64,000 nt of DNA from Bacillus niameyensis (GTDB lineage: Bacteria; Bacillota; Bacilli; Bacillales; Bacillaceae_C): assembly GCF_001375535.1 (NCBI RefSeq), contig NZ_LN831197.1, positions 2,788,099 through 2,852,098 of the forward strand, given 5' to 3'. Below the pieces are notes generated by a model. That model ran no database searches. It saw only the letters and a program-made list of their open reading frames with translations, and was not told the origin of the DNA. Both the position numbers and the translations under genes were made by a program. Every line of letters begins with the position of its first letter. Position 1 is the first letter of the stretch. Positions 5,957 to 55,093 of this stretch are shown here, piece by piece.

Positions 5957-6769
5957 ATGTTAGGAAAATGGTATAGTTCCGGACTAACAATGATCAACCA
6001 AATGAACCGGCACCTTTCCATTTCTCAACGTTCATTAGAAAGAATATCAACAGGGATGCGGATTAACCGCGCTAGTGATGATCCTGCTGGACTTGCTATT
6101 TCTGAAAAAATGCGTGCCCAAATTAGAGGATTAAATATGGCTGGGCGGAATATTCAAGATGGGATCTCCCTCCTCCAAACAGCTGAAGGAGCTTTGAATG
6201 AGACACATTCCATTTTGCAGCGAATGAGGGAATTAAGTGTTCAGGCCGCTAATGATACGTTGACGGATGAAGACAGAAAAGCACTTGCTTTAGAGTTTGA
6301 ACAATTGAAGGAAGCAGTGGAGCAAATTTCAAAGGATACTCAGTTCAATACGATGCGACTTTTGGATGGCTCCAAAGATTCTATTCATATTCAGGCAGGT
6401 GCCAACGCTGGGCAATCGATTGAATTGTCGTTTGGGAATATGAATGCAGATGCCCTAGGTATAAGTGATCTATCTATTGATGATCGCGATTCGGCAGAAG
6501 AAGCTATGGAGGCACTGGACGGTGCCATTCAAAAGGTCTCATCCGAGCGCTCAAAAATGGGCGCTTATATGAACAGGCTTGACCATGCCTATAATAATGT
6601 TTTAACTATGGAGGAAAATCTCATCGCCGCTGAATCAAGAATTCGTGATGCTGATTTAGCGAAGGAAATGATGAATTACACAAAATCGATGGTATTGCTA
6701 CAGGCGAACCAATATGTCATGAAATTGCATATGCAACAGGCGTACTCCGTTCTGCAATTACTAAAGTAA
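5957..6769 (+). CDS. Flagellin-like protein (orphan, without central variable domain)
   Basis: A 270-residue protein with the conserved flagellin D0/D1 regions at both ends: an N-terminal stretch with ERISTGMRINRASDDPAGLAIS (here cut to its core words), MRAQIRGL and IQDGISLLQTAEGAL, and a C-terminal helix ESRIRDADLAKEM...VLLQANQ. Between them lie only about 60 residues, so the surface-exposed D2/D3 domain is essentially absent. The usual first residues (MRINHNI) are replaced by MLGKWYSSGLTMI. The ATG at 5957 is preceded by GAGGTG at a 6-base spacing; a GTG at 5948 is less likely. A sigma-D promoter lies upstream and a strong terminator downstream, so it is a single-gene unit away from any flagellar operon. 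It could be a minor filament flagellin; a hook-associated role is possible but less likely. Confidence 0.88.
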   Translation: MLGKWYSSGLTMINQMNRHLSISQRSLERISTGMRINRASDDPAGLAISEKMRAQIRGLNMAGRNIQDGISLLQTAEGALNETHSILQRMRELSVQAANDTLTDEDRKALALEFEQLKEAVEQISKDTQFNTMRLLDGSKDSIHIQAGANAGQSIELSFGNMNADALGISDLSIDDRDSAEEAMEALDGAIQKVSSERSKMGAYMNRLDHAYNNVLTMEENLIAAESRIRDADLAKEMMNYTKSMVLLQANQYVMKLHMQQAYSVLQLLK

Positions 6770-52174: not shown

Positions 52175-52312
52175 AATTTAGCATACATTAAAAAAGACCT
52201 TTCCAGTGTGACAGCACCGAAAAGGTCGATTAATAGAATCGCTTCAAAAGCGATCAGCAATATTGCAGAAATAGTCCGCTCCTTGCTGCTAGGCTCAGGG
52301 CGGATTATTTCT
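52175..52312 (+). ncRNA. Predicted antisense antitoxin RNA
   Basis: On the plus strand, TTGAAA (52142-52147) and TATAAT (52163-52168) form a sigma-A-like promoter with a short 15-base spacer. The transcript would run toward the toxin gene and end at the hairpin AATAGTCCGC/GCGGATTATT (52270-52309), which is followed by TTCTT. It would overlap the 3' end of the toxin mRNA by roughly 120 bases, the arrangement of TxpA/RatA and BsrG/SR4. Confidence 0.55.
52190..52227 (-). terminator. Terminator of the toxin mRNA
   Basis: On the minus strand GACCTTTTC and GGAAAGGTC pair and are followed by TTTTTT. Confidence 0.8.
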
Positions 52313-52388
52313 TATGTGAAAGTGCGATAACAGCTACGATTAGACTTGCAAAGCTAATCATTAAAACCAAAGCCTGGAATACACTCAC
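52305..52388 (-). CDS. Type I toxin, putative holin-like toxin family (27 residues)
   Basis: A 27-residue peptide starting MSVFQALVLMISFASL and ending ALSHKK: one membrane helix with a short basic tail, as in the small holin-like toxins of Bacillus (Fst/TxpA-like, Hol_Tox). It starts at GTG 52388 with GGAGG 8 bases upstream. On the minus strand an extended -10 TGGTATAGT lies at 52478-52486. In the 5' leader CAGCACCT is perfectly complementary to AGGTGCTG at the ribosome site (52392-52399 with 52438-52445), so translation is probably held back by folding. Convergent antisense RNA is predicted. Confidence 0.75.
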   Translation of the reverse strand: MSVFQALVLMISFASLIVAVIALSHKK

Positions 52389-52578
52389 TAGCAGCACCTC
52401 CTCTCTGTCTGAAACTTCCATGACAGGGACGAAAAACAGGTGCTGACCGCCCTTGAAAAACCTATTCTATTAATAAAACTATACCATAAAACCAATGGTG
52501 ATTAGCTATAGAACGGAAATGAGGAAAGATAACTTTATTAAATAAGTCTTGAGCAAAGTATCGTCCTTCTCCTCTTGT

Positions 52579-53781
52579 CTAGAGACTTGATTCTTTAACA
52601 CGCTTTTTTACAACCGAATAAAATAATAAACCAAGCATTAGGATCGTTTGTCCTATGAACACAACTGCATCCCAAAAAGAGGAACTCCCTGCAGGATCAG
52701 TTAGATTAGAAAAAATAAGTGAGTACGCGTAAAAGACTTGAGGTAAAAAGTAAATAGCAAATAAACTAAATGTAAGCAATATGCCACATATATACAGCAC
52801 ACTATATAAGCGAATAGTTTTCGTCTCTCCCTGAAATGCTGCGGTTGTGGGATCGTACTTTATAAAAGGTATCCATTTGCTTAAATACTGTTTCCCATTT
52901 TCCATCAGATTGTAACAACCAGTTACATTTTCAAAGAAATAATAAACATCTGTTTTCATATAAAAACAGCATTGATATATCGTTTTAATAAATAGATCAA
53001 AGATTACGATCCCTAAAATTCCAATAAAAATGGCTCCACTTTCTGGAAAGAGAATTTTTATAGTAAATGCGATAAAAATAAGCGACTGTTCCAAGGCCAT
53101 CCCTGCAAAATATAAGACATTTCTTTGCCTTGAGGGCAGTTTCCATGCCGAGGTTAAGTCTGTTTCAAACACAACGAATAACAGCCGATTCCCGATATCT
53201 AATTTAGCAGGCAAGTTGTGGGCACGTATCGCAAAAACATGGCCAAACTCATGAATGATTATTAATATGAAGGAAACGGCCATATAAGTAACCATATTCA
53301 GTACCATAGAATCAAATAAAAAAATATCTTTATAGGTTGGGATAAGGTTTGGATTCATTACTGCTAAAATAACATTTAACAAAAAGAAAAGTATGAAAAT
53401 CTTATTGGTCACCTTATTAAATATGATTTGCCCCACCTTAGGTGAAATCCATTGAAGTCCTCCTAGCGATCGGCCCCTTTCCTGTCTCCTTATTCTTTCA
53501 CCATCTACCTCTTCAACGAGACCAAGGTCGATCAGCTGCTCAGCAAATTCAATCATATTCACTTCTTCATTTGGATAATTCGCCTTTAATATAACCTCGA
53601 TATCTCCAAGCATTTCACCCTTATCGATCATCTCAATCGCATCAATACAAATTTTTGGCATTTCAAAAAAGTCACCTGAAGAAGGGTCTTCGACAATATA
53701 ATGTTTTTTATCTTTTTGAATAGATAGAGGGCATAATATTAGTTGAGATTGTGAGGATAAAACCAAAACTCGCACCACCAA
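52579..53781 (-). CDS. PqqD-like (RiPP-recognition) domain fused to an M50-type membrane zinc protease
   Basis: About 400 residues. Residues 10-95 look like a PqqD/RRE-type domain (HYIVEDPSSGDFFEMPK, then an acidic helix-rich part ending IDLGLVEEVDG). Residues 125-395 hold six or seven membrane segments, with the zinc motif HEFGH (177-181) in a helix and a later Asp in MKTDVYYFF as the possible third ligand. It belongs to the 'peptide zinc metalloprotease' group that handles small peptides. The start is uncertain: TTG 53781 is the longest and has no good ribosome site. Directly upstream is a 22-residue peptide gene with a stem-loop between. It probably cuts, matures or exports that peptide, or gives immunity. 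Confidence 0.82.
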   Translation of the reverse strand: MVVRVLVLSSQSQLILCPLSIQKDKKHYIVEDPSSGDFFEMPKICIDAIEMIDKGEMLGDIEVILKANYPNEEVNMIEFAEQLIDLGLVEEVDGERIRRQERGRSLGGLQWISPKVGQIIFNKVTNKIFILFFLLNVILAVMNPNLIPTYKDIFLFDSMVLNMVTYMAVSFILIIIHEFGHVFAIRAHNLPAKLDIGNRLLFVVFETDLTSAWKLPSRQRNVLYFAGMALEQSLIFIAFTIKILFPESGAIFIGILGIVIFDLFIKTIYQCCFYMKTDVYYFFENVTGCYNLMENGKQYLSKWIPFIKYDPTTAAFQGETKTIRLYSVLYICGILLTFSLFAIYFLPQVFYAYSLIFSNLTDPAGSSSFWDAVVFIGQTILMLGLLFYSVVKKRVKESSL

Positions 53782-53798
53782 TCGGTAAATATGAAAAT

Positions 53799-53822
53799 AG
53801 GGTGCTAATCAAATAGCACCCT
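53799..53822 (-). terminator. Stem-loop between the small peptide gene and the protease gene
   Basis: On the minus strand AGGGTGCTA and TAGCACCCT form a perfect 9-bp stem with a 6-base loop, followed by ATTTTCAT. It is a weak terminator or attenuator, as commonly seen after precursor peptide genes to make peptide exceed enzyme. Confidence 0.65.
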
Positions 53823-53829
53823 GTTCTAA

Positions 53830-53898
53830 TTAATGTTGTGGAACAAGCCAGCACCACCAGCAAGTAACTTTAATTTTCTTTAATTTACGGATTTTCAT
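53830..53898 (-). CDS. 22-residue cationic Cys/Trp peptide, candidate RiPP precursor or pheromone
   Basis: The frame starts at ATG 53898 with GGGGGAG seven bases upstream, and stops at TAA 53830. The first half is basic (MKIRKLKKIKV, six positive charges); the second half is TCWWCWLVPQH, with two Cys and three Trp in five positions. It has no signal peptide. It lies 35 bases after the HD-GYP gene and 50 bases before the PqqD-like/M50 protease gene, all on the minus strand. No known bacteriocin or pheromone was recognised. The cationic leader and aromatic core suggest a modified, secreted or membrane-active peptide. Confidence 0.6.
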   Translation of the reverse strand: MKIRKLKKIKVTCWWCWLVPQH

Positions 53899-53927
53899 GG
53901 ATATTCTCCCCCCTTAGTATATATTGT

Positions 53928-53950
53928 GACTATCATTTAGAATGATAGTC
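53928..53950. repeat. Perfect palindrome at the end of the HD-GYP gene
   Basis: GACTATCATT and AATGATAGTC surround a 3-base centre. The HD-GYP stop codon is inside. No T-run follows on the minus strand, so it may be a weak terminator, an mRNA-processing site, or an operator for the peptide gene 30 bases downstream. Confidence 0.6.
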
Positions 53951-55093
53951 TTTATGGAAGTCGACCCAACTAGGATATACTTGCTGAAAAGTATTTACCA
54001 ATTGCGGGTCAAACTGAGTCCCTTTTCCATCAAGAATACGTTTATACGCTTCTTCAAAAGAAAGTGCTGATCGATACGATCTTGAAGATGTCATAGCATC
54101 AAAGGCATCTGCAATAGCCGTAATTCTTGCAAGTAGAGGGATTTCATCTCGCTCTAACCCATCTGGGTAACCTTTACCATCCCATCGCTCATGGTGATGA
54201 TATATAACATCAATGTTTCCATCTATTCCTTCAACGCCTTGAACGGCTTTTGCTCCTACGGCAGGATGAGTCTTAATTAATTCATACTCTTCGTCCGTTA
54301 ATTTACTAGGCTTCGTTAAAATGGAATCGGGAATATTTACTTTACCTATGTCATGTAATAGACAAGCATAATAGAAATGTTTAAGTTCATAGTCTTTAAA
54401 CTTTCCCGTAGCTTTTGCAAGACTCATTGCATACTCAGCTACACGCTCACTGTGACCGCGAGTGTATGGATCCTTAAGTTCAAGGGTAGCAATAACTCCT
54501 TTAACTATGCCCTCAATTTGCAGGTCATAAGATTGCTTGAGCGCCTCTACATAATTTAAAAAGCGATGAAGAAGAATGTAAGCAATAATAGACAAAATGA
54601 AATTGAATAATATCGGAATTAAAACAACATGGTCATGAAGGATTAATCCCAATAATATATATTTAAAGATAGATCCAATTGAAACTAAATAGAAAAAACG
54701 TTTATTAATAAATATTGGTGAAAACAAAATAATAACTAACTCGACTAAGTTCCCACTACTATAGGAAATATCACTACCCCAATAGTACCAAATATCGGTT
54801 AACAAGTTAACAGAAATATAAGTTAAAAATAAAATATATTTTATAGATTCAGGCTTATTTTTCTTTATTAAATAAACTGTTATAGGAATTAGACCAAATA
54901 TAACGATATATTTTATATAATTTATATCGAGTCCAGCCGAATTTGTAAAATCACCTGACCACGGAGTGATTGGCAAAAGATAATAATAAAACAAATCATA
55001 AAAGAAGAAAACAATATAAAATAGCCACAAAAATAATATAGTAGACCGCTTTTCCTCCTGTAATAAGGACATACGGAGTGATTTTTTCTGCAT
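53933..55093 (-). CDS. Membrane HD-GYP domain protein (c-di-GMP phosphodiesterase type)
   Basis: A 386-residue protein with about six or seven membrane helices in residues 18-185, a short linker helix, and an HD-GYP domain (195-375): EGIVKGVIATLELKDPYTRGHSERVAEYA (quoted in part), CLLHDIGKVNIPD (HD), HPAVGAKAV, HHHERWDGKGYPDG (GYP motif) and ITAIADAFDAM. All metal ligands appear present. The membrane part has no recognised sensor domain. It starts at ATG after GAGGTAA. It is upstream of the small peptide and the M50 gene on the same strand, so it could be part of that unit as a sensor. Confidence 0.9.
   Translation of the reverse strand: MQKKSLRMSLLQEEKRSTILFLWLFYIVFFFYDLFYYYLLPITPWSGDFTNSAGLDINYIKYIVIFGLIPITVYLIKKNKPESIKYILFLTYISVNLLTDIWYYWGSDISYSSGNLVELVIILFSPIFINKRFFYLVSIGSIFKYILLGLILHDHVVLIPILFNFILSIIAYILLHRFLNYVEALKQSYDLQIEGIVKGVIATLELKDPYTRGHSERVAEYAMSLAKATGKFKDYELKHFYYACLLHDIGKVNIPDSILTKPSKLTDEEYELIKTHPAVGAKAVQGVEGIDGNIDVIYHHHERWDGKGYPDGLERDEIPLLARITAIADAFDAMTSSRSYRSALSFEEAYKRILDGKGTQFDPQLVNTFQQVYPSWVDFHKDYHSK

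Follow-up and report, generated by a model that had tools for sequence, protein, structure and literature searches.

A conserved CWWC peptide, an RRE-site-2-protease fusion and a MASE12-HD-GYP protein point to a previously undescribed unit for peptide signalling among Bacillus-like bacteria

The window analysed here, 64,000 nucleotides (nt) of Bacillus niameyensis DNA (assembly GCF_001375535.1, contig NZ_LN831197.1, positions 2,788,099-2,852,098), carries at 52,579-55,093 three consecutive minus-strand genes, which encode a MASE12 membrane sensor fused to an HD-GYP domain, a 22-residue peptide with a CWWC motif, and a membrane protease with an N-terminal RRE-like domain. That peptide and protease belong together is well supported, and the peptide is very probably a substrate or ligand of the protease. 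We put at about even the chance that the three genes form one inherited unit making a very small peptide product tied to cyclic di-GMP (c-di-GMP) signalling. No curated family covering the unit was found, and the open-access literature in PubMed Central (PMC), subscription papers lying outside the scope of the search, gave no account of either peptide or unit.

The close set consists of the window and 35 relatives (loci L002-L036) from a scan of genome contigs, with identities of 36-65% and 15 named genera among the relatives, including Virgibacillus, Sporosarcina, Oceanobacillus, Gracilibacillus and Solibacillus. These loci partly share genomes with those of a sample of 397 genomes from the order of the window; L103 (a second weak match in genome G085) and L102 (G418) were left out, and the 79 peptide loci give 64 distinct spacers between peptide and protease genes.

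The peptide MKIRKLKKIKVTCWWCWLVPQH is encoded at 53830-53898, stop codon included, and its open reading frame (ORF) lies behind the ribosome site in aaggggggagaatatcc-ATG. A CWWC-type peptide precedes the protease gene in 35 of 35 homologous loci, and the frame is thus not a chance one. Its form is MK[IV][RK][KR]L followed at some distance by CWWC, the exceptions being CYWC in L016, CFWC in L020 and two additional residues ahead of CWWC in one locus. Among 62 distinct in-register sequences (L019 and L048, with a two-residue insertion, were excluded from codon counts), the ratio of nonsynonymous to synonymous change (pN/pS), counted pairwise with no correction for shared descent, is 0.21 for codons 2-12 of the leader (residues 1-12, 53863-53898), 0.009 for the CWWC motif (residues 13-16, 53851-53862), where the two Cys codons provide the only synonymous sites, and 0.81 for codons 17-19 of the tail (residues 17-22, 53833-53850). 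C13, W15 and C16 occur in 62/62 of these peptides and W14 in 60/62, and an aromatic residue (W, F or Y) fills position 18 in 49. As judged from the codons, a leader, a fixed motif and a variable tail are the layout of a maturing precursor, and this selection pattern agrees with the ribosomal precursor, conserved leader and separate core of a ribosomally synthesized and post-translationally modified peptide (RiPP). No NCBIfam family matched the 56 peptides scanned out of 59 non-repeat peptides from the 79 loci; the three outside the scan have fewer than 20 residues. A peptide of this size is short enough to escape gene callers.

The protease ORF spans 52579-53781 (400 aa, TTG start) and opens 48 nt past the peptide stop. 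A second TTG, at 53766, is the more probable start, giving a gap of 63 nt and a protein of 395 aa (52579-53766), since it is preceded by ggtggtg and aligned with the starts chosen for homologues. The AlphaFold2 model of this fusion has a mean predicted local distance difference test score (pLDDT) of 86.3. By predicted fold, residues 1 to about 92 (53491-53766) form an RRE/PqqD-like domain, that is, a candidate leader-binding domain of the RiPP type, for which some members also give weak sequence support (PF05402 in 5/36, WgkC in 3/36). The remainder resembles site-2 proteases, SpoIVFB and RseP being the best solved structure matches. Alignment and predicted fold place the HEFGH zinc-protease motif (residues 172-176, 53239-53253) in a membrane helix, as in the M50/site-2 class, and H172, E173, G175 and H176 are invariant in 36/36 proteases. 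PF02163 matches 28 of the 36; the window protein scores 19.5-19.9 bits, under the cut-off of 27.2. A second motif, YQCCFYMKTD (residues 264-273, 52948-52977), is invariant throughout the close set, and its [ST]D part is retained in 18/18 distant paralogues; D273 is the proposed third zinc ligand. The CC part is not constant in other close homologues: among the 43 close loci from the order sample, only 17 have the full motif. The idea that CC cooperates at the zinc site with the CWWC dithiol was dropped because CC is replaced (by AA, TA or LC) in several close loci that keep CWWC, so that the two do not track.

The docking of the leader was modelled by folding the window peptide, the spacer and the protease as one chain with stops written as Gly, the peptide being present in 17 of the 36 rows. 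The tethered fold (mean pLDDT 85.1) predicts strands at peptide residues 4-6 and 10-13. Its pLDDT is 87 for residues 1-10 and below 50 for residues 15-42, and this disordered linker serves as an internal control. The RRE blocks reach pLDDT 90-97 with the tethered peptide versus 82-95 without it. The model suggests that the RRE-like domain binds the leader.

The first gene of the unit (53933-55093) encodes a 386-aa protein in which Pfam recognizes MASE12 (PF20971; E = 2.5e-46, 158.2 bits against a cut-off of 27) and HD_5 (E = 7.4e-38). The HD-GYP phosphodiesterase motifs HD.GK and HHERWDG.GYP reach at least 97% conservation in an alignment of 35 sequences that includes the window, which marks the protein as a putative c-di-GMP phosphodiesterase. 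An HD-GYP gene lies upstream in 36/36 loci, whole and adjoining the peptide gene in 35 and cut by the contig end in L018. When neighbouring genes of at least 80 aa were clustered over the 36 loci (flanks reaching 8 kb except where a contig ended sooner), the protease and HD-GYP families were the only two found in every locus; the third commonest occurred in nine. The peptide starts 34 nt from the HD-GYP end in the window and between -23 and +35 nt from it in 35 of 35 loci measured, with overlap in 17. The first-pass annotation of this DNA, made from the letters alone, had described a two-gene system of a peptide and a PqqD-like membrane protease, with a bacteriocin, pheromone or membrane-active signal as product. 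Its 22-codon frame with a ribosome site, its HEFGH membrane protease and its PqqD-like domain all stand. It had named two outcomes that would count against it, a peptide frame lacking conservation beside protease homologues and a domain fold unlike PqqD; neither was found, because the search of related genomes returned the peptide in all 35 loci with synonymous-biased change and the predicted fold is PqqD-like. The two-gene view was dropped; neither the HD-GYP gene nor a hairpin in the spacer figured in the annotation. With HD-GYP as a constant third part, the likely role shifts from bacteriocin towards signalling.

That hairpin, AGGGTGCTA-TTTGAT-TAGCACCCT followed by ATTTTC (53799-53822), is terminator-like and lies between the peptide and protease genes. 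Stems of at least seven pairs with at least three G/C occur in 61 of the 64 distinct spacers, whereas 20 rounds of base shuffling gave 21 on average and 28 at most; at a limit of five pairs with at least three G/C, to which the shuffling control does not apply, all 64 qualify. A T-rich tail accompanies 57 of the 64, and the arms are of GGATG/GGGTG type in 55 and different in the rest. Directly downstream of the protease, the window also has a BsrG-type type I toxin RNA (Rfam RF01412, 52201-52475, minus strand, ORF 52305-52421), which scores 55.2 bits against a cut-off of 55.

The three genes also occur together across the order. Protease matches at E <= 0.001 appear in 61 of the 397 genomes, and a strong group of 43 (E <= 1.4e-116) stands apart from the next match at 3.0e-79. 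All 43 have the peptide and the HD-GYP gene upstream, although in L045, at a contig end, only the C-terminus of the latter is present. A peptide profile likewise picks out these 43 at E < 1e-7, with the next match at 0.0028, and at a loose E <= 1 it matches 158 genomes. MASE12 was detected in 54 of the 397 genomes; the 52 over the cut-off comprise 42 of the 43 unit genomes, where it lies at most 5.5 kb from the protease (the 43rd is L045), and ten without the unit, where MASE12 is found solely on histidine kinases, one of them truncated. In 23 of the 43 genomes the protease has another MASE12 protein no more than 5.5 kb away, and two genomes carry further copies elsewhere; this neighbour is a kinase by motif in 15 of 15 fetched from the 23. 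Pfam found MASE12, HisKA and HATPase_c in four of four proteins searched, from L092 and L116 (unit-bearing) and L104 and L108 (genomes without the unit). Over all fetched loci, which overlap and are not independent, there are 81 HD-GYP and 33 kinase MASE12 proteins by motif. The kinase part of these proteins (L104-L117 and further loci) has AtoS, ZraS and the sporulation kinase KinD as best models, all below their cut-offs. In 6/36 loci (L007, L010, L014, L015, L022 and L030) a small protein family was seen upstream of the HD-GYP gene; its L007 member (5966-6616) is a GGDEF protein by Pfam.

In 398 genomes sampled over the phylum, the full-length protease occurs in two, both of the order, MASE12 occurs in the same two, and one partial protease match (8.7e-11) lies elsewhere; with only seven visible genomes of the order, this sample mainly indicates rarity outside it. 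The distribution is patchy: within the window's genus, a further eight genomes gave no protease match. Carriage by phages or plasmids was considered and rejected: phage records gave no match, the 96 pattern-matching stretches in viral contigs included no relative, and the 29 matches in plasmid records, 21 of them from Streptomyces, all had less than 60% identity, the ten listed lying at 23.7-26.0%.

We propose the following scheme. The HD-GYP and peptide genes overlap or lie close and are probably co-read, and the hairpin would limit read-through so that the peptide exceeds the protease, which would be expressed less. The RRE-like domain may bind peptide residues 1-12 by strand addition, as predicted in the tethered fold, and cleavage by the site-2-protease part may then follow, at the membrane or within it. 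A short product of CWWC plus tail, possibly closed by a disulfide, would be released to the membrane or to the outside, by analogy with EpeP/EpeX and TglG (PMC10885120, PMC7614699). The product, or the balance between precursor and product, could be read by the MASE12 domain of the HD-GYP protein and change c-di-GMP; in many genomes the neighbouring MASE12 histidine kinase might read it too and alter a phosphorelay output. Sensing through MASE12 is proposed because the linkage is strict, the range of MASE12 is restricted and MASE12 kinases neighbour the unit, and we regard it as not quite an even prospect. In Mantel tests over 35 loci, the tail correlates with the HD-GYP domain at 0.41, MASE12 at 0.35, the protease at 0.32 and the RRE at 0.29, and the leader with the RRE at 0.28, the protease at 0.23, MASE12 at 0.22 and HD-GYP at 0.15, an order that fits the model with differences that are small and with shared descent not removed. 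With the protease controlled for, partial tests give r = 0.18 for tail and MASE12 and 0.30 for tail and HD-GYP; with the HD-GYP domain controlled for, tail and MASE12 give 0.15. Co-evolution of tail and MASE12 was rejected as proof of the link, the partial correlations being too weak and confounded. The fullest form of the scheme is a new kind of cell-cell signalling, in which the RRE-site-2-protease recognizes the precursor and MASE12 reads the product, leading to c-di-GMP breakdown and, via the MASE12 kinases, to a phosphorelay; this we offer tentatively, with clearly less than even confidence.

Several of the same observations could be read in other ways. The closeness of the peptide start to the HD-GYP end, with overlap in about half of the loci as given above, would also suit regulated proteolysis within one cell, in which the uncut, membrane-bound peptide inhibits or activates the MASE12-HD-GYP protein until the protease removes it, as with anti-sigma factors. 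The similarity of the membrane part to SpoIVFB and RseP and the lack of a conserved exporter in the 36 loci point the same way. The tail, however, varies almost freely, closer to a released specificity part than to a fixed inhibitor, and to our knowledge RRE domains are otherwise associated with peptide maturation; we consider this reading rather unlikely. A basic, Trp-rich peptide with a variable tail might instead be a small membrane-active antimicrobial or cannibalism-type product like the epipeptide EpeX, its production merely timed by HD-GYP. The nearest curated protease models, those of daptides and of epipeptide LiaK/YydH, would agree with it, the window protein falling far under their cut-offs. 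No immunity or transporter family is conserved alongside in the 36 loci, though, and what stays constant instead is a regulatory enzyme carrying a single sensor type, which makes an antimicrobial role unlikely.

The invariant CxxC set in a variable tail raises the thought of redox, metal or heme sensing, with the CWWC dithiol binding a metal or switching by disulfide formation and being shown to the protease as a sensor. It is improbable, as no metal or redox family is conserved alongside in the 36 loci and the CC near the zinc site changes independently of CWWC. Most implausible is a translational attenuator or leader ORF without a product: the frame does lie ahead of a terminator-like hairpin, but its amino acids are conserved amid many synonymous changes, the hairpin arms vary by locus, and the gene that follows codes for an RRE-like domain.

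Should the cell-cell signalling scheme be true, MASE12 would be a peptide receptor family. If the MASE12 link holds, an orphan sensor domain would have its first candidate ligand, and a small peptide would be linked directly to c-di-GMP. The cassette is very compact, with 22 codons and one enzyme that seemingly both binds and cuts.

Distant paralogues of the protease place the unit in a broader context. From 20 such loci, L086, a fragment containing a stop, and L087, which lacks a protease match, were dropped, leaving 18 (L068-L085) with protease identities of 27-32%. None has a CWWC peptide within 500 nt upstream or an adjacent HD-GYP gene; in L084 a 34% HD-GYP match lies about 2.5-3 kb away. 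All 18 have a ThiF-like family, upstream on the same strand in 17 and on the opposite strand in L085, with further genes between it and the protease in L081-L083. The one ThiF-like protein tested is PF00899, and at its N-terminus a winged-helix match (HTH_47, E = 0.0068) stays below the cut-off. In 17 of 17 loci scanned (L068-L084, L085 being left out), the ThiF-like gene has one to three tiny peptides ahead of it within 350 nt, for example MKIKVKKTEKLKPT... or MKKIVVRKLETVSVPQLRPGT. L081-L083 additionally carry a predicted substrate-binding protein, by record label, and an MFS-like transporter, by eye. Because the distant paralogues lie near similarly built tiny peptides, RRE-M50 proteins and tiny peptides with basic leaders seem to make up a wider group, in which the CWWC unit would be the HD-GYP branch; the Streptomyces-rich plasmid matches also point to such a group.

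Among known systems, the distant paralogues recall RRE-ThiF RiPP clusters of the microcin C and IndF type, with a ThiF-like protein and tiny peptides nearby; in the CWWC unit, HD-GYP occupies the position of the ThiF-like protein. A modifying enzyme of the RiPP kind was not found, since no other family of at least 80 aa occurs in more than nine of the 36 loci; this rests on family clustering, in which neighbours were not annotated singly, and a remote enzyme is possible. Lasso peptide B1 and PqqD RREs differ in that the RRE here is fused to a membrane protease and HD-GYP is the sole other conserved gene. The daptide intramembrane metalloprotease (NF041824) weakly matches 20 of the 36 proteases (best E 2.3e-07), and the window protein scores 13.7 bits against the daptide_HExxH cut-off of 300; unlike in daptide systems, no modifying genes are conserved beside the unit in the 36 loci. 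The epipeptide systems EpeX/EpeP (YydF/YydH, LiaK) share a small precursor beside a membrane M50 protease, and EpeP is proposed to cut and export EpeX (PMC10885120, PMC7614699). Six of the 36 proteases match the LiaK/YydH model at E <= 0.01 (best 4.4e-06), the window protease scoring 15.9 bits against a cut-off of 225, and no conserved neighbour family in the 36 loci fits a radical SAM epimerase or an EpeAB-type transporter. In contrast to the epipeptide systems, the protease described here has an RRE-like domain and its constant partner is HD-GYP. From the site-2 proteases SpoIVFB, RseP and MjS2P, finally, it is set apart by that N-terminal domain and by its likely substrate, a peptide of 22 residues.
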